11,980 nt of DNA, from assembly GCA_012839145.1 (NCBI GenBank), contig DUNY01000224.1, positions 1 to 11,980 on the forward strand, read 5' to 3'. The notes beneath the pieces were generated by a model that made no database searches, had not been told where the DNA came from, and saw only the letters and a list, made by a program, of their open reading frames with translations. Position 1 is the first letter of the stretch, and each line of letters starts with the position of its first letter. Origin of the DNA: Thermoanaerobacterales bacterium. Its GTDB lineage: Bacteria; Bacillota; Thermosediminibacteria; Thermosediminibacterales; Tepidanaerobacteraceae. A program made the translations under genes and the position numbers. Of the stretch, positions 5,321-11,980 are shown in pieces.

Positions 5321-6640
5321 ATGCTTAAAACCTTCAAAGGAGGGATACATCCTCCGTATAATAAAAACCTTACCAATTTCAAACCTATCGAAAAAGCTAT
5401 CTTGCCTAAGAAGGTTATAATTCCAATGGGTATGCACATAGGTGCTCCATGTGAGCCTCTAGTCAAAGTAGGAGATACGGTTAAAAAAGGTCAAAAGATT
5501 GGTGAAGCAAAGGGCTTTGTATCAGTGCCTGCTCATGCCAGTATATCAGGAAAAGTAACGGCAGTAGAACCAAGGCCCTGGCCGGGTGGAGGTCTAATGA
5601 TGTCGGTAGTTATCGAATCCGACGGAAAGGATGAACTATTTGAAGGTGTCAAACCTTCTAAGTCACTTAGTGACCTTTCACCCGATGAGATAAAAAACCT
5701 TATACGGGAAGCGGGAATAACGGGACTGGGCGGTGCAGGCTTTCCTACCCAAGTCAAGCTATCCCCTCCGCCGGAAAAGAGTGTGGACACTATTATTGTA
5801 AATGCAGCTGAATGTGAACCTTACATTACGGCTGACCATCGGCTTTTGTTGGAACGGCCGGATGATGTGGTATTAGGCCTTGAAGCCATTATGAAGGCAA
5901 CGGGTGTTAAAAGGAGCTTTATTGGCATTGAAAACAATAAGCTTGACGCAGTGGAATCAATCCAGAAAGTTGTTCAAGGTAAAGAAGGCATTGAAGTAGT
6001 GATCTTGGCCACCAAGTATCCACAAGGTGGTGAGAAACAGCTGATAAAGGCTGTCACCGGCAGAGAAGTTCCTTCAGGCGGATTGCCCATGGACGTTGGA
6101 GTTATTGTGAATAATACCGGAACATGTGCCGCTATTGCCAATGTATTAAAAACAGGGTTACCTTTGATTGAAAGGATAACAACAGTGACCGGTTCGGGAA
6201 TAAGGGAGCCTAAAAACCTTTTAATAAGAATCGGGACTCCGTTAATTGATATTATCGAGCAGTGTGGCGGTTTCAAAGGCAGACCAGGCAAAGTCCTGAT
6301 GGGAGGACCGATGATGGGGCTTGCTCAATCCCAATTAGAAGCACCAGCTATTAAGGGGACTTCAGGACTATTGGTTTTAGAAAAGGCTGATGTGCGATTA
6401 TATGAACCATCACCGTGTATACGATGCGCAAGATGTGTTGATGTATGTCCTATAAATCTTTTACCAACCACTCTTGCTAAATTTGCTGAGAAAAATATGT
6501 GGGTTGAAGCAGAAAGTTATCATGCGATGGATTGCATAGAATGCGGCTGCTGCTCTTTTGTATGCCCTGCTCATATACCTTTGACCCAGCATATAAGAAT
6601 TGCTAAGAGTCATATTATAGCATTAAGAAAGAAAAAATGA
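5321..6640 (+). CDS. rnfC: Rnf complex subunit C (NADH/FMN-binding, two [4Fe-4S])
   Basis: Peripheral cytoplasmic subunit of the ferredoxin:NAD+ oxidoreductase that handles NAD(H) through FMN. The 439-residue length is normal for Firmicute RnfC. An N-terminal lipoyl/biotinyl-like region is followed by the NuoF-like nucleotide/FMN-binding signature GLGGAGFPTQVKL (about 135-147), then AECEPYITAD and GGLPMDVGVIVNNTGT. The C-terminus carries two ferredoxin motifs: C366, C369, C372, C376 (CIRCARCVDVCP) and C405, C408, C411, C415 (CIECGCCSFVCP). The ATG is preceded by GGGAGAGGTG. It is the first gene of the rnf operon; an 83-bp spacer separates it from rnfD, longer than the other gaps. Confidence 0.96.
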   Translation: MLKTFKGGIHPPYNKNLTNFKPIEKAILPKKVIIPMGMHIGAPCEPLVKVGDTVKKGQKIGEAKGFVSVPAHASISGKVTAVEPRPWPGGGLMMSVVIESDGKDELFEGVKPSKSLSDLSPDEIKNLIREAGITGLGGAGFPTQVKLSPPPEKSVDTIIVNAAECEPYITADHRLLLERPDDVVLGLEAIMKATGVKRSFIGIENNKLDAVESIQKVVQGKEGIEVVILATKYPQGGEKQLIKAVTGREVPSGGLPMDVGVIVNNTGTCAAIANVLKTGLPLIERITTVTGSGIREPKNLLIRIGTPLIDIIEQCGGFKGRPGKVLMGGPMMGLAQSQLEAPAIKGTSGLLVLEKADVRLYEPSPCIRCARCVDVCPINLLPTTLAKFAEKNMWVEAESYHAMDCIECGCCSFVCPAHIPLTQHIRIAKSHIIALRKKK

Positions 6641-6723
6641 ACAAAAAAAGAGACTTTCAACTTAAGCTAAAATGTCTATTATATAATGTGTCAATGAAGT
6701 AACTAGATGGGAGGCAGTTATGG

Positions 6724-7647
6724 ATGGATGAATACAGGTTAATAACCACATCTTCTCCTCACCTACATTCAGGAGAAAGTATTTCAAGAATAATGTTCAG
6801 TGTAGCAATAGCGTTGCTATTGCCTACCTTTGCTGGGATATATTTTTTTGGTTTTCGCGCTTTAAGCCTTGTTATTATAACAAGTCTTGCAGCAGTGTTA
6901 ACAGAAGCTATATTTCAGAAACTTAGAAACAAGCCTATCACAATAGCGGACGGCAGTGCTTTGGTGACGGGCATGCTGCTGGCTCTAAATCTACCACCAG
7001 GCCTACCTTATTGGATGGCTGTTGTGGGTGCCGTAGTGGCAATATCTCTGGGCAAACAAATTTATGGAGGTTTAGGCGCAAATCCTTTTAATCCTGCTCT
7101 TATCGGCAGAGTGTTTTTGATGATAACATTTACAACTCCCATGACCACTTGGATTAACCCGATCGATGGCATGACAGGAGCAACCCCGCTTTCACTTATG
7201 AAGATGGAGGGGATATCCACAGACTATACAAAGCTTTTGTTAGGAAATAGCGGCGGTTCTTTGGGAGAAACGTCTGCTTTACTTATTATTATTGGCGGAC
7301 TATACCTTATATATAAGGGGTATGTTGATTGGACTATACCTGCAAGTTATTTAGGAAGTGTGGCATTATTTGTAGCAATTTTAGGTCAGGATCCAGTTTT
7401 TCATCTTTTATCGGGAGGTCTTATGCTGGGAGCATTTTTTATGGCTACGGATATGGTAACAACGCCGCTAAGCAAGTTTGGTAAAGTAATTTTTGGTATA
7501 GGTGCGGGCGTATTTACAGTGTTAATAAGGGTGTATGGTGGGTACCCTGAAGGTGTATCTTTTTCCATTCTACTTATGAATGCTTTTACCCCGCTGATTA
7601 ACCGATTCACTGTACCCAAAATATATGGGGAGGTGAAAGCCAGATGA
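6724..7647 (+). CDS. rnfD: Rnf complex membrane subunit D (covalent FMN)
   Basis: Polytopic membrane subunit of 307 residues, homologous to NqrB, that is part of the ion-translocating core. Several hydrophobic helices are visible from residue 22 onward. The flavinylation motif TGATPLSL is present at 151-158, with T154 the expected attachment point for phosphoester-linked FMN, added by ApbE (not in this window). DGSALVTGMLLALNLPP and GGLGANPFNPALIGRVF are conserved stretches. Three overlapping ATGs occur at 6720, 6724 and 6728; only 6724 is in the coding frame, and it follows GGGAGG at 6709-6714. The stop overlaps the rnfG start by four bases (ATGA), so the two are translationally coupled. Confidence 0.96.
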   Translation: MDEYRLITTSSPHLHSGESISRIMFSVAIALLLPTFAGIYFFGFRALSLVIITSLAAVLTEAIFQKLRNKPITIADGSALVTGMLLALNLPPGLPYWMAVVGAVVAISLGKQIYGGLGANPFNPALIGRVFLMITFTTPMTTWINPIDGMTGATPLSLMKMEGISTDYTKLLLGNSGGSLGETSALLIIIGGLYLIYKGYVDWTIPASYLGSVALFVAILGQDPVFHLLSGGLMLGAFFMATDMVTTPLSKFGKVIFGIGAGVFTVLIRVYGGYPEGVSFSILLMNAFTPLINRFTVPKIYGEVKAR

Positions 7648-8186
7648 ATCAGTATGCCAGAATGATTATAGTACTAATGATTATATCTATTGCATCAGGA
7701 GCCGTGCTAGCTTTATCCTATGAAATTACCAATCCTACGATTCAAGAACAGGCAAGACAAAAATTAGAGCAGTCGGTGTTGACTGTGATCCCCGGAGCTA
7801 CTAAGATGGAAGAAATTCAAAAAGAAGACATGATCGTATATATAGGGTTAGATGATGAGGGGAATAAAAAGGGTATTTCATTTGAAGCTACAGGCTCAGG
7901 CTTCAACGGTCCTATAGAAATAATGGTAGGGTATAATCCAATAGAGGGTAATTTATTAGCAATAGAAATCCTATCTATGAGTGAGACACCAGGCCTTGGA
8001 GCCAAGATAAAAGAAGAGGCTTTCACAAGTCAGTTTAAAGGAAAGTCCTCAGAAGAAGAATTCGCTGTAAAAGAAGATGTGCAGGCTATTTCAGGAGCAA
8101 CTATATCTTCCACGGCTGTTGCTAATGCAATCAAAACTTCACTGGACAAAATAGTTAAAATATATCCCGTGGGAGGCGATCTTTAG
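7644..8186 (+). CDS. rnfG: Rnf complex subunit G (membrane-anchored flavoprotein)
   Basis: Single-span membrane protein of 180 residues, homologous to NqrC, with one N-terminal helix (about residues 7-26) and an extracytoplasmic FMN-binding domain. The flavinylation motif is SGATIS at 150-155, so T153 should carry covalent FMN. The upstream segment reads VQAISGAT, with Gln where Asp is often seen (VDAISGAT); I recall Gln in some clostridial homologues. SMSETPGLGAKI (110-121) is the conserved FMN-binding stretch. GGGAGGTGAAAGC precedes the ATG, which overlaps the rnfD stop by four bases; rnfE begins two bases after its stop. Confidence 0.95.
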   Translation: MNQYARMIIVLMIISIASGAVLALSYEITNPTIQEQARQKLEQSVLTVIPGATKMEEIQKEDMIVYIGLDDEGNKKGISFEATGSGFNGPIEIMVGYNPIEGNLLAIEILSMSETPGLGAKIKEEAFTSQFKGKSSEEEFAVKEDVQAISGATISSTAVANAIKTSLDKIVKIYPVGGDL

Positions 8187-8188
8187 TC

Positions 8189-8800
8189 ATGCAAATAATT
8201 AAGGACTTTGTTAACGGTTTATGGAATGAAAATCCAATATTTAGGATGGTTATTGGTATTTGTTCTGCATTGGCTGTAACCACTGCCGCAAATAACGGTA
8301 TTGCAATGGGTTTGGCACTGACGTTTGTATTGACATGTTCGAGCATATTAGTTTCACTACTTAGAAATGTAATTCCGTCAAAAGTAAGAATACCCTGCTA
8401 TATTATTGTAGTTGCTACTTTTACTACCGTTGTTGATCTTTTTATGAAGGCATATTTTCCTGCCTTATACGAAGTATTGGGGATATTTATTCCTTTAATA
8501 GTAGTAAACTGCATTGTCTTAGCACGAGCAGAAGCCTTTGCCTCAAAGGTCGGTGTAGCCAGAGCCACAGCTGATGCTCTAGGAATGGGTCTTGGATACA
8601 CATGGGCTATTACTCTAATTAGTATGATAAGAGAGCTGTTGGGAGCAGGCACTTTATTTGGATACCAGGTTATGGGTGATGGTTTTACACCTTGGATTAG
8701 TGCGATTCTGCCTCCTGGGGCTTTTATAGTTATGGGTATCCTTGTAGGCTTGATTAACATGATTAATAGAAAAACAGTTAAAGATACTGATTGCCATTAA
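8189..8800 (+). CDS. rnfE: Rnf complex membrane subunit E
   Basis: Integral membrane subunit of 203 residues, homologous to NqrD, with about six membrane helices. It pairs with RnfA in an antiparallel arrangement. The cysteines C25 (GICSALAVTTAANN) and C108 (PLIVVNCIVLARAEAFA) are the positions which, in the Nqr/Rnf family, coordinate an intramembrane iron centre together with two from RnfA. ADALGMGLGYTWAI and REL(L)GAGTLFG are further family stretches. The start is ATG 8189, with GGGAGG at 8171-8176 inside the end of rnfG. An additional Cys at 50 and one at 70 are not known ligands. Confidence 0.95.
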   Translation: MQIIKDFVNGLWNENPIFRMVIGICSALAVTTAANNGIAMGLALTFVLTCSSILVSLLRNVIPSKVRIPCYIIVVATFTTVVDLFMKAYFPALYEVLGIFIPLIVVNCIVLARAEAFASKVGVARATADALGMGLGYTWAITLISMIRELLGAGTLFGYQVMGDGFTPWISAILPPGAFIVMGILVGLINMINRKTVKDTDCH

Positions 8801-8805
8801 AGGAG
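8799..8805 (+). promoter_or_regulatory. Ribosome binding site fixing the rnfA start
   Basis: AAAGGAG at 8799-8805 is ten bases before ATG 8816 but only one base before the in-frame GTG at 8807. The GTG is therefore too close to be the start, and RnfA begins MAKELFF. Confidence 0.75.
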
Positions 8806-8815
8806 CGTGGTAACA

Positions 8816-9406
8816 ATGGCAAAGGAATTGTTTTTTATTATAGTTGGTTCAGTGTTTGTAAATAACTTCGTGTTATCAAGATTTTTAGGGCAATGCCCGT
8901 TTTTAGGAGTTTCAGGCAAAACCGAAACCGCTGTAGGTATGGGTATGGCTACAACCTTTGTTTTAACTATGACAGCGGTAGCAGCCTATTTTCTACAAAA
9001 CTATGTACTTGCACCCTTTGGCCTAGAGCCATTTTTACAAATAGTATCATTTATTTTAGTCATTGCATCATTAGTGCAGCTAGTGGAAATGGTAGTGTTA
9101 AAAATCAGCCCGGCTTTATATAATGCTTTTGGTATTTTTCTACCTTTGATTACTACTAATTGTATAGTGATGGGTGCCGCCCTTTTAATACCGATGAACA
9201 ATTACAATCTTATCAAAAGCATTGCCTTAGGATTGGGAGCGGGCATAGGCTTTACTTTAGCGTTGGCTTTAATGTCAGGTATTCGCGAAGATTTAGAGTT
9301 TGCTGATGTGCCTGAGGCTTTAAGAGGCCCAGCTATAGTGTTTATAACAGCAGGATTATTATCTATGATATTTATGGGATTCACAGGACTTGTTCCATTA
9401 GGATGA
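8816..9406 (+). CDS. rnfA: Rnf complex membrane subunit A
   Basis: Integral membrane subunit of 196 residues, homologous to NqrE, with about six helices. Characteristic segments are FVNNFVLSRFLGQCPFLGVS with C27, SPALYNAFGIFLPLITTNC with C116, and GLGAGIGFTLALALMSGIRE. C27 and C116 correspond to the iron-coordinating cysteines shared with RnfE. A start at GTG 8807 would add three residues but is sterically incompatible with the AAAGGAG site. It lies 15 bases after rnfE and 19 bases before rnfB, within one operon. Confidence 0.95.
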   Translation: MAKELFFIIVGSVFVNNFVLSRFLGQCPFLGVSGKTETAVGMGMATTFVLTMTAVAAYFLQNYVLAPFGLEPFLQIVSFILVIASLVQLVEMVVLKISPALYNAFGIFLPLITTNCIVMGAALLIPMNNYNLIKSIALGLGAGIGFTLALALMSGIREDLEFADVPEALRGPAIVFITAGLLSMIFMGFTGLVPLG

Positions 9407-9425
9407 AAGACTACAGGAGGCGAAT

Positions 9426-10466
9426 ATGATGGCAAATAGTATACTTACTTCCATACTGAGCATGGGTGGCTTGGGCCTGGTGTTAGGTGGAGGGCTTGCC
9501 CTTGCGTCCAAGAAGCTGGCCGTAGAAACAGACCCTAGGGCGGATGCCATAGTTGAAGCACTGCCCGGAGCCAACTGTGGTGCATGCGGATATCCTGGTT
9601 GTTCAGGACTAGCAAAATCAATTACGGAAAATAAGGCACCGGTAAATGCGTGCCCAGTTGGGGGAGCATCGGTTGCTGAAAAAATAGCGAAGATAATGGG
9701 AGTCACTGATATAGGTAGCACAGATGATAAAAAAATAGCCCGTGTTTTGTGTCAAGGAGGCAAATCCGAAGCCAAGGTCAAATCTGAGTATCACGGTATA
9801 AAAACCTGTAAGGCTGCATCTATGGTAAACAGCGGTCCCAAGAGCTGTTCCTTTGCATGCATAGGGTTTGGCGACTGTGTAAAAGTATGCCCCGTTGACG
9901 CCATAACTCTAGAGGATAATGGCCTACCCGTTATTGATGAAGGAAAATGCACTGGTTGCGGCCTTTGTGTAAAAGAATGCCCGAAAATGGTTTTAGCTTT
10001 AACTTCTAACAAGAATGAAGTTCATGTTCGGTGCAGAGCCACTATGAAGGGAAAAGACACCAGAGCTGTGTGCAATATCGGATGCATAGCATGTAAGCTA
10101 TGTGAAAAAGTGTGCCCCTTTGATGCCATACATGTTAAAAACAATGTAGCGGCGATCGACTATGAAAAATGCCGCAATTGCATGCTTTGTGTGGAAAAAT
10201 GTCCCACCAAATCAATAACGTCGGCATTTGCTGCGCGCAAAAAAGCCGTTATTGTAGAAGAAAAATGCATCGGTTGTACAATCTGTGCAAAAAATTGCCC
10301 GGTAAATGCTATTACCGGTGAATTAAAAAAGGTGCATGTGGTAAATCAGGACCTATGTATCGGTTGTGGTATTTGTCAGGAAAAGTGTCGTAAAGATGCA
10401 ATTGAAATGGTGCGAAACGGCCATGAAAAACTTGATGAATGCAGTGCATGCGCTGCCTCAAAATAG
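9426..10466 (+). CDS. rnfB: Rnf complex subunit B, long multi-ferredoxin form
   Basis: Electron-entry subunit that accepts electrons from reduced ferredoxin; 346 residues with an N-terminal membrane anchor (about 6-28). The Fe-S domain NCGACGYPGC with C51, C54, C59 and C76 is followed by six ferredoxin-type motifs: CSFACIGFGDCVKVCP, CTGCGLCVKECP, CIACKLCEKVCP, CRNCMLCVEKCP, CIGCTICAKNCP and CIGCGICQEKCR. Seven [4Fe-4S] clusters are thus predicted, against about three in proteobacterial RnfB. Long forms are known from acetogens and clostridia. The last motif has Arg instead of Pro after the final Cys, and two more cysteines sit in the tail (ECSACAASK). AGGAGG at 9415-9420 serves ATG 9426 or the adjacent ATG 9429. 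It is the last gene of the operon, followed by a strong terminator. Confidence 0.95.
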   Translation: MMANSILTSILSMGGLGLVLGGGLALASKKLAVETDPRADAIVEALPGANCGACGYPGCSGLAKSITENKAPVNACPVGGASVAEKIAKIMGVTDIGSTDDKKIARVLCQGGKSEAKVKSEYHGIKTCKAASMVNSGPKSCSFACIGFGDCVKVCPVDAITLEDNGLPVIDEGKCTGCGLCVKECPKMVLALTSNKNEVHVRCRATMKGKDTRAVCNIGCIACKLCEKVCPFDAIHVKNNVAAIDYEKCRNCMLCVEKCPTKSITSAFAARKKAVIVEEKCIGCTICAKNCPVNAITGELKKVHVVNQDLCIGCGICQEKCRKDAIEMVRNGHEKLDECSACAASK

Positions 10467-10931: not shown

Positions 10932-10986
10932 AAGGAGCTGTTCTACCAACTAATTTTAGCGGTAAGGTATGCGGCAGCTCCTTTTT
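10932..10986 (+). terminator. Terminator-like hairpin with T tract
   Basis: AAGGAGCTG (10932-10940) pairs perfectly with CAGCTCCTT (10975-10983), and the T run continues to 10986. The 34-base interior is long for a simple terminator but has some internal pairing potential (CTACC with GGTA). It ends the debris region on the plus strand, which suggests that something upstream was or is transcribed. Confidence 0.55.
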
Positions 10987-10991
10987 GGACT

Positions 10992-11017
10992 AAATAAAGC
11001 GGGTCAAAGCGACCCGC
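10992..11017 (-). terminator. Terminator downstream of the cotJC fragment, minus strand
   Basis: GCGGGTC (10999-11005) and GACCCGC (11011-11017) form a perfect 7-bp GC stem with a five-base loop. Read on the minus strand, it is followed by TTTATTTA (10998 down to 10991). It lies about 115 bases beyond the cotJC stop and is the best candidate for its terminator. Confidence 0.5.
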
Positions 11018-11130
11018 AGGTGCTACAATAATAGTATTAACAAAACTCAGGGTGATTATTCCATTTACACTAATAAATGTTCATAACCATAAGCAGATAA
11101 ACTACACAAAAACAGTACTGTAAATTTTTC
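11018..11130. other. Short spacer, nothing recognised
   Basis: This AT-rich stretch lies between the minus-strand hairpin and the cotJC stop codon. I see no open reading frame, repeat or RNA structure that I would call. Confidence 0.4.
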
Positions 11131-11529
11131 TTAAAAAACATGTTTTTTGTTTAGATATTCCCTCACTAGCATCAGGGTCTCACCAAAACGCTGAAAGTGC
11201 ACCACTTCCCGCTCTCTTAAAAATGAAAGAGTTGCAATTACACCCGAATCATCAGTGAGATTGATGAGATGTTCATAGGTAGTTCTAGCTTTTTGTTCCG
11301 CAGCCATATTTTCATGTAAGTCGGTTATAGGATCTCCTGTCGACTGTATATATGCGGCCGTCCAGGGCACTCCAGCTGCATCATGAGGGTAAAGAGCATT
11401 ATCGTGCTGGGCATAATGATCCCCCATACCGGCTCTTCTCATTTGTTCGGGAGTAGCTCCATCAGTTAATTTATAAATTAATGTTCCTATTATTTCCCAA
11501 TGAGCAAATTCTTTAGTTCCAATATGTTG
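11131..11529 (-). pseudogene. cotJC: 3' part of cotJC, a spore-coat manganese catalase, interrupted
   Basis: The minus strand encodes the last ~130 residues of a CotJC-type manganese catalase, starting abruptly at IGTKEFAHWEIIGTLIYKLT and ending at the natural C-terminus (NKKHVF). From memory, Bacillus subtilis CotJC (about 189 residues) has the equivalent LLTD-IGTEEFAHLEM near residue 60, so roughly the first 59 residues are missing. Di-manganese ligands of the family are kept here (Glu and His of KEFAH, Glu of AAEQKA, His of REREVVH). The first ligand Glu lies in the missing N-terminal part, so this piece alone should not form the metal site. No start codon with a ribosome binding site exists at the 5' end; ATG 11442 is internal. 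Upstream, the frame meets TGA 11530-11532, the stop of an inserted recombinase gene. There is no decay within the fragment, which hints at recent interruption or preserved function. Confidence 0.85.
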
Positions 11530-11535
11530 TCAGTG
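11520..11535 (-). other. Putative att junction of the element within cotJC
   Basis: Catalase homology begins at Ile (codon at 11521-11523) and recombinase coding ends at 11530-11532, so the recombination point should lie within a few bases of this interval. The minus-strand sequence here reads CACTGACAACATATTGG. The exact core dinucleotide cannot be fixed without the other end of the element or an uninterrupted allele. Confidence 0.5.
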
Positions 11536-11980
11536 ATCTTGAGGCAATTTAGGATTTATAACCAACTCAAAATCATCTACTTTGCCGCTCCAACGGCCGC
11601 CCTCTTCCTTGGTATAAATTACTTTATCCAATATCTCTTTCAGCAATTCATTTTTATCTTTTGCTGATTCAAGTTTATTGTATATATTTAAAACCTTTTC
11701 CCATCTGGGAATTATACTTTTCTTCTTTTCTTCTACGGAAAAAATATTCTTTAACTTAGTCTCTAATTCATCTTTACTCGCTTTTGCAGTATTTATTTTG
11801 CTTTCTATGTTTTGGGACCTTTTTATAAAAGTATCTGTAGAATAAACGCCCTGTTCGACGAGATCATGCAAACTATTTAGCTGCTTATTCAGGGTCTCAA
11901 GTTCTTTTCCAATATCTTTAATGGATTGTTTTATTATTTCTGTATCAAAACATATTTTTTTATTCTCTTGTATTTTAATT
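11524..11980. mobile_element. One end of an integrated element inserted in cotJC
   Basis: Everything beyond the catalase break, at least to the window edge, belongs to the inserted element, marked by its serine recombinase at the boundary. Size, cargo and the other att end are outside the window. It could be a prophage, an integrative conjugative element or a skin-like remnant; only the recombinase is visible. Confidence 0.7.
11530..11980 (-). CDS. Large serine recombinase, C-terminal part (runs off window)
   Basis: The minus-strand frame is open from the window edge to TGA 11530-11532, giving about 149 residues of the C-terminal region. The long Lys/Glu-rich helical segment with LHDLVEQGVYSTDTFIKRS fits the coiled-coil region of large serine recombinases, and the ending GGRWSGKVDDFELVINPKLP is a common C-terminus in these enzymes from Firmicutes. 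The catalytic N-terminal resolvase domain and zinc ribbon lie outside the window. Such enzymes integrate and excise prophages, integrative elements and skin-type elements at specific att sites. It is co-oriented with the cotJC fragment, and its stop codon is in the catalase reading frame. Codon use is AT-rich. Confidence 0.85.
   Translation of the reverse strand, partial: IKIQENKKICFDTEIIKQSIKDIGKELETLNKQLNSLHDLVEQGVYSTDTFIKRSQNIESKINTAKASKDELETKLKNIFSVEEKKKSIIPRWEKVLNIYNKLESAKDKNELLKEILDKVIYTKEEGGRWSGKVDDFELVINPKLPQDH

Follow-up and report, generated by a model that had tools for sequence, protein, structure and literature searches.

A handful of genes are known to lose an inserted DNA element by programmed excision as the cell sporulates. 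In the sigK skin of Bacillus and Clostridioides difficile, a sporulation gene is split by an element that encodes a large serine recombinase (LSR), and in C. difficile the gene for the skin recombinase CD1231 directly precedes the 3′ half of sigK (available part of PMC5025042). Other sporulation genes are interrupted by intact or defective prophages or by a non-phage island; these elements, namely SPbeta in spsM, gin in gerE, vfbin in spoVFB and yin in yabG, carry an LSR and, where studied, a recombination directionality factor (RDF) (available parts of PMC5595907, PMC10747680 and PMC6957869). The gene cotJC, listed as a sigma-E gene in the available part of PMC3416734, is not among their targets, and in the portions of PMC5595907, PMC10747680, PMC6957869 and PMC13141910 that were available there is no mention of cotJ. 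In the available part of PMC11222575, a C. difficile gene resembling cotJC is placed beside prophage phi027 and is not described as split. No interruption of cotJC was found in the open-access literature searched, and a preliminary description of the DNA analysed here names no earlier case either.

The locus described here resembles the sigK skin in that a sporulation gene is split by an LSR element and, as in C. difficile, the recombinase lies directly upstream of the 3′ half of its target. In contrast to the sigK skin, the target is a coat Mn-catalase-like gene and not a sigma factor, there are several insertion addresses and repeated splitting, and excision from cotJC is predicted from sequence. 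The gene emerges as a recurrent target across Clostridia and Bacilli.

A cotJC 3′ part adjoins a large serine recombinase

The window, by which we mean the whole stretch of 11,980 nucleotides that was analysed (contig DUNY01000224.1 of a Thermoanaerobacterales bacterium), belongs to a genome, G000, of 2.58 Mb in 493 contigs that is 89% complete. A Pfam Mn_catalase (PF05067) match on its minus strand (11131-11529, E 6.5e-37) starts at profile position 61 and adjoins the C-terminal frame of an LSR that is read in the same direction (Table 1), which bears out the split that had been proposed from the letters of the window. The preliminary description started the cotJC sequence at IGTKEFAHWE; EFAHWE is indeed part of the gene, which resumes at Glu65, but the letters IGTK belong to the att arm of the element, and crossover at GA would restore IGTEEF. 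The metal ligands of CotJC are presumably Glu35, Glu65 and His68.

Table 1. Features of the split cotJC locus (positions in the window unless a contig is named)
Feature	Position	Strand	Remarks
rnf operon	5321..10466	+	convergent neighbour of cotJC; order kept beside intact cotJC in G010, G006 and G002
cotJC 3′ part, codons 65-190 and stop	11131..11511	−	frame intact; 126 residues, EFAHWE...KKHVF; from translation
Core AAGAATT, common to attR here and attL on C265	11507..11513	−	from junction comparison
Putative crossover dinucleotide GA, bases 1-2 of the Glu65 codon	11510..11511	−	centre of the attP palindrome; predicted from sequence
Element-derived attR half, left arm of the implied attP	11511..11535	−	palindromic with the arm at C265:2850-2874
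LSR, C-terminal 149 aa	11530..11979	−	56% identity with G009 recombinase residues 380-525
65-aa ORF, candidate RDF	C265:2891-3088	−	16 bp past attL; locus L004

The N-terminal part of the LSR is found on another contig of the same genome (C80:3-1151, minus strand), where it matches residues 11-379 of the homologue in G009 at 76% identity. Base 1 of C80 and base 11980 of the window overlap by only 6 bp; because C80 and the window cover residues 11-379 and 380-525 of that homologue, they are most likely adjacent, and the recombinase, if these contigs do adjoin, is most likely intact across them. A search of the genome gave a Resolvase-family match on C80 only, and the LSR domains were verified by family search on the full-length G009 homologue. 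Among 26 genomes of the class, recombinases at least 55% identical were found in G000 and G009 only. YokA of SPbeta (PDB 9dxh) is related to the window's LSR (E 3.4e-56), which has a different small ORF nearby. Past the recombinase, C80 encodes a protein that matches no Pfam family, a PucR-type regulator and, by eye, the start of an oxidoreductase-like gene.

The 5′ part lies on another contig and joins in frame in silico

A missing 5′ part of about 59 codons had been predicted, and an intact one of about 65 codons is present, placed on a separate contig (C265:2657-2854, plus strand; profile positions 1-67) behind cotJA and cotJB. The PF05067 search of G000 gave two places only, the window and C265, and the expectation that there would be no intact second cotJC held in this 89% complete genome. 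The attL site lies where the 5′ part of cotJC ends, at about 2849-2874 of C265, and attR lies at 11507-11535 of the window. The two arms of the implied attP are palindromic at 19 of 25 positions, a value that none of 10,000 shuffles of one arm reached. When the halves are joined at AAGAATT by script, an ungapped CotJC of 190 aa results, 93% identical over residues 1-190 to the best intact reference. The script picks the best join and several cores, across the loci joined in this way, have only 4 bases, so the in-frame outcome arises partly by construction; the gap-free match to intact CotJC is independent support for the joins. In silico, the locus thus shows what is seen at skin-type elements: an interrupted mother-cell gene, an LSR beside an att site, and matching cores with an in-frame join.

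Relatives carry an uninterrupted gene

Three members of the same family (G010, G006 and G002) have an intact cotJC that converges on this rnf operon, and therefore the 3′ flank in the window is ancestral and the gene was split in place. The DNA upstream of cotJA on C265 matched none of their cotJ regions among the best matches listed. G009 has the same split, with the 3′ part beside a recombinase that is 76% identical to that of G000 and the 5′ part on a separate contig, and in its congener G005 cotJC is uninterrupted. Collinearity between G009 and G005 extends for 6.4 kb (95%) past the 3′ half and across cotJA, cotJB and the 5′ part of cotJC (734 bp, 97.5%), though not past cotJA; their similarity ends at codon 65 and picks up again on the other contig. 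Two proteins of the G009 element match T4SS coupling-protein and TraG/VirB4-like P-loop families, and this element is therefore ICE-like. In this respect it resembles ICEs with serine integrases; unlike them, the G000 element, which is incomplete on the contigs that hold its ends (C265 and C80), shows no conjugation gene there by eye.

The far end in G000 runs into core genes

Past attL, C265 carries the 65-aa ORF and then about 1.6 kb in which no convincing gene is seen, followed by tRNA-Gln, tRNA-Glu, rnr and an amidase, CwlD-like, whose match falls below the family cut-off; the tRNAs and rnr are reached within 2.2 kb. In two relatives with complete genomes, the distance between rnr and cotJC is about 300 kb (G005) and 868 kb (G010). 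No shared repeat that would explain the joining of C265 to the tRNA locus was found. The two cotJC halves sit on different contigs, and it is likely that the element of G000 has been rearranged internally or that the assembly is in error. The anatomy foreseen for a skin-like excision was recovered in part: the 5′ part, the att arms and the in-frame join are present, but the far end carries unrelated genes, which the preliminary description had named as evidence against its reading, and this counts against a simple element in G000. The same contig bears a THF riboswitch (L004:1640-1742, minus strand) upstream of an apparent ECF-type transporter gene.

Split cotJC genes recur beside related recombinases

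A scan of contigs by alignment of three LSRs yielded at least 167 confirmed loci, the best 80 of which were analysed. Of these 80, 29 have a cotJC match no more than 600 bp from the end of the LSR, and in 27 a split cotJC adjoins the LSR, broken at codon 65 in 25 cases and at codon 78 in two (L132 and L142); in the remaining two (L117 and L159) cotJC is complete from about codon 4 onward, or stops near codon 177. With 27 of 80 loci showing it, and with the attP palindrome (0/10000 shuffles), the pairing of LSR and split cotJC is, as judged from the sequences, not a product of chance. By eye, the frames adjoining other recombinases include a truncated sigK (8/80), a LysM/GH18-like gene (11/80) and an asparagine synthetase (4/80). 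When one example of each was checked with HMMs, SigK and asparagine synthase were clear, and LysM scored above and GH18 below the Pfam cut-off.

On a tree of 83 LSRs (the 80 loci, G000 and two further relatives), the cotJC labels need 11 changes, at least 7 of them on starred branches, and are clustered (0/500 shuffles as low), the root being arbitrary. G000 groups with G009 and L083 at 100/97. Rows labelled sigK occupy one region, mixed with a few others.

Whole elements and genes in three or four pieces

PF05067 was searched in 19 genomes of the LSR loci. The 5′ and 3′ pieces of cotJC lie on one contig, on the same strand and in the correct order in Papillibacter (5.75 kb), Thermoflavimicrobium (7.9 kb), Thermoactinomyces (15.8 kb), Caproiciproducens (98 kb), Paenibacillus lacisoli (50 kb) and Paenibacillus 598K (42 kb), and further in G069, G070, G071, G072 (2.0 kb), G074, G077 (with stops in the 3′ piece) and G079. 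Direct orientation around one element on one contig is seen, for example, in G062, G064, G066-G068, G070 and G074. The pieces are on separate contigs in G061, G076 and G078, and the search of G075 gave the 3′ piece only. An additional family match of near full length is present in G065, G067 and G068, where these are larger or other catalases, and in G075, G078 and G079. Two inserts at codon 65 contain little beyond the recombinase, measuring about 2.0 kb at L161/L222 (one of the 27 loci) and 1.5 kb at L149 (outside the 27).

Several genes are split more than once. In Anaerovorax odorimutans DSM 5092, codons 1-34, 28-68, 65-136 and 134-190 of cotJC lie on three contigs, and the PF05067 search found no whole copy. 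The gene is in three pieces in Intestinimonas (L218) and likewise in G333 and G185, and Ruminococcus L149 has pieces 1-8, about 8-34, 30-68 and 63-175. The recombinases of the inserts at codons 31, 65 and 135 differ clearly in sequence, with about 26 to 28% identity between types, and those of the codon-135 type in Anaerovorax, G221, G244 and G185 are 64 to 66% identical. Insertion addresses at codons about 31, 65, 78 and 135 are used in at least two loci, and those at about 8, 57 and 100 once or in few. When windows are ranked by DNA conservation, those at codons 31, 65 and 135 belong to the top 9, 4 and 2%; for the seven addresses jointly, P is 0.118. Of 18 junctions joined by script, 17 are continuous in frame, including L222 and L130, which diverge from CotJC further on; at codon 31 of Intestinimonas, the best join carries extra residues. 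Codon 176 is not claimed as an address, as it is merely where alignments stop in four loci. At two Ruminococcus loci and one in a Lachnospiraceae MAG (L159, L117 and L149), the recombinase is directly upstream and cotJC begins at about codons 3 to 8; a 5′ cotJC remnant and palindromic arms are visible at L149.

An even sample across the phylum comprises, G000 apart, 298 genomes, of which 197 have an Mn-catalase match. Both ends of a split cotJC are present in at least 13 sampled genomes (G053, G109, G111, G132, G173, G185, G198, G221, G244, G265, G285, G326 and G333), a lower bound, as 28 genomes were listed individually, with G173 counted without inspection of contig edges; three of them (G109, G173 and G265) have a further near full-length match. 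Apparent splits in G032 (profile 1-84 and 66-196) and G004 were rejected as contig-edge artefacts, the pieces of G032 lying at contig ends, and those in G007 and G011 as small deletions or frameshifts. A break near codon 135 in G265 was also rejected, being two overlapping contig ends, and the codon-65 split of that genome stands. Neither G327 nor G293 was counted as split, nor was G019, where the 3′ piece lies beside what looks by eye like a DUF499-like/methylase-like island with no match to the window's recombinase. That genome has, at L076 (C120:1218-1586 and 10969-11103), a cotJC 3′ piece that starts from the same codon and a shorter second 3′ copy at the contig end.

Selection on the pieces

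Two genomes of one genus, G221 and G244, have the codon-135 split in common. Their recombinases (517 aa each, 91.5% identical) differ with dS 0.90 and dN 0.041, and the three cotJC pieces with dN 0.052, 0.040 and 0.021 and dS 1.24, 0.87 and saturated, so that omega is 0.04 to 0.05 for the first two. Because recombinase and cotJC pieces are alike in dS, the split was probably inherited by common descent; because omega is near 0.04, the broken gene appears to be still in use. These values argue that the pieces are under purifying selection, as would be expected if the gene is rebuilt. This evidence for retention comes from another genus and another cotJC site than those of G000.

For the halves of G000 compared with G010, omega is 0.028 and 0.017, against 0.046 and 0.033 for the intact pair G002 and G010, all at high dS. 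The apparent lack of decay is consistent with such rebuilding and does not date the insertion; between the recombinases of G000 and G009, dS is saturated. In a codon-65 test within genus g158 (G244, G265 and G285), the recombinases are 54 to 61% identical, with dS saturated or above 1.7. L104 and L108, which have a codon-65 split in common, have recombinases that are 62% identical (dN 0.275) and pieces with dN 0.15 and 0.10 at dS 0.67 and 0.74, a higher ratio for cotJC than in G221 and G244. Of 14 genomes tested, 13 have SpoIVA; it was missed in G072, the carrier of a 2.0-kb recombinase-only element; in G000 the SpoIVA ATPase is present.

A small ORF and promoter patterns

The 65-aa ORF next to attL belongs to a family with the motif GNTxIxIxDD. 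An iterated profile finds this family in 48 of the 80 LSR loci (the best 80 of at least 167), a count that is not independent because the profile was built from these same loci. Of 51 hits, 48 lie upstream of the recombinase, 46 of these on the opposite strand. Beyond the 80 loci, 11 others occur in 1.08 Mb, each within phage or element DNA of the same type, and several of them are second copies of the same places. The ORF is missing from 11 of the 27 loci with a split cotJC, the whole elements L113, L121, L130 and L161 among them. Its structure model is weak (pLDDT 67), and structure comparison gave no significant fold match. Known RDFs can be as short, with CD1234 at 53 aa (available part of PMC10747680) and Skr at 64 aa (available part of PMC6957869). 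On balance, we put the chances that the 65-aa ORF is an RDF at about even; conserved as it is beside many recombinases, it represents a candidate family of directionality factors.

In a scan for mother-cell promoters upstream of 28 cotJC-linked recombinases, the -10-like CATANNNTA occurs in 8 of 28, against 2.6 expected. The full sigma-K pattern is found in none of these 28, and the full sigma-E pattern in one, against 0.9 expected.

Excision, residence or remnant

The best explanation for these observations, and one that we consider probable from the comparison of sequences, is a skin-like excision at codon 65 that rebuilds cotJC. An element has integrated site-specifically at this codon, and its LSR ends directly before the 3′ part; in the mother cell, the recombinase and a directionality factor, for which the 65-aa ORF is the candidate, would recombine attL with attR at GA; and excision would rebuild the 190-aa CotJC with no heritable loss, because the mother cell dies. 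The relatives suggest that this recombinase family repeatedly settles in mother-cell sporulation genes, among which cotJC is the commonest address recognised in the best 80 of at least 167 loci. Recurrence at codon 65 in 25 of 80 LSR loci, together with the apparent purifying selection on the congeners' pieces at another site, favours a skin-like rearrangement. It is unlikely, in our view, that these are ordinary ICEs or phages that have settled in a dispensable coat gene, with cotJC lost, excision serving transfer only, and the halves intact because insertion was recent. The conjugation-type genes of the G009 element point that way, as does the integrase of Paenibacillus phage phiIBB_P123, which is 56% identical to the G009 recombinase, and in genomes that keep a second near full-length copy (G075, G078 and G079) the split copy could simply decay. 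In C. difficile, moreover, mutants of two cotJC homologues lost catalase activity and had no significant coat defect (cited in the available part of PMC11222575), and the catalase activity of CotJC is described as apparently unimportant for coat assembly in the available part of PMC3533761. However, residence of this kind fits poorly with tiny inserts inside cotJC that hold little but a recombinase, with a split common to congeners that keeps omega near 0.04 over a dS near 0.9, with genes in three or four pieces that remain open and, one junction excepted, joinable in frame, and with related recombinases beside truncated sigK, where interruption is programmed in other species.

For G000 itself, it is conceivable, if on the whole doubtful, that the split is a broken remnant, produced by rearrangement in the element or by an error of MAG assembly or binning, whose halves simple excision cannot rejoin; this would be compatible with programmed excision in the relatives. 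The left end of the element is joined to the tRNA-Gln/rnr locus, which lies so far from cotJC in G005 and G010, the stretch between the 65-aa ORF and the tRNAs lacks convincing genes, and the genome is fragmented and incomplete, all of which speaks for such a remnant. Yet both att sites and both cotJC halves are still intact, and a serine recombinase would also rejoin inverted sites by inversion, for which the attP x attB reaction of CD1231 on plasmids may be compared (available part of PMC5025042). Returning to skin-like excision, a broader version of it would have cotJC serially split by several LSR lineages at fixed addresses, with the mother cell needing several excisions, and the codon-65 family specialised on mother-cell genes (cotJC, sigK, SleL-like LysM/GH18 and AsnO-like), the sigK skins being one branch; we find the arguments for and against this broader version about equally strong.

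If true, a serially split cotJC would be a bacterial counterpart of ciliate gene assembly, and multiply split genes would raise the question of what coordinates several excisions within a single terminal cell. Direct tests are possible in Anaerovorax odorimutans DSM 5092, in Papillibacter cinnamivorans DSM 12816, where one split copy was the only one found, and in Thermoflavimicrobium dichotomicum DSM 44778. The recombinase-only inserts and the apparently inherited split in congeners also make the persistence of such interruptions testable.

Other genes beside related recombinases

As in the sigK skin, recombinases that nest among the cotJC-linked ones on the tree adjoin a truncated sigK at a fixed site. 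These recombinases, which share about 41 to 45% identity with the query, have as neighbour a sigK truncated near DPIGxDKEGNE at L040 (G031), L133, L134, L137, L140, L143, L148, L151 and L158. A truncated LysM/GH18-like gene, which we take to be SleL/YaaH-like, lies downstream of the recombinase at L106, L109, L112, L118-L120, L124-L126, L136 and L141. Its 5′ pieces end near LLMTYEWGYT and differ with dN 0.03 at dS 0.64 between L109 and L112, and with dN 0.43 at dS 2.0 between L118 and L119. A split asparagine synthetase (AsnO-like) is represented by 3′ parts at L097 and L098 and by 5′ parts at L103 and L107 that end near SGECADE, the one at L107 being confirmed by HMM.

At L228, in Paenibacillus phage phiIBB_P123, a member of the small-ORF family lies about 1.2 kb from the integrase. 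The presence of both genes in this phage suggests that phages use the same recombination unit.
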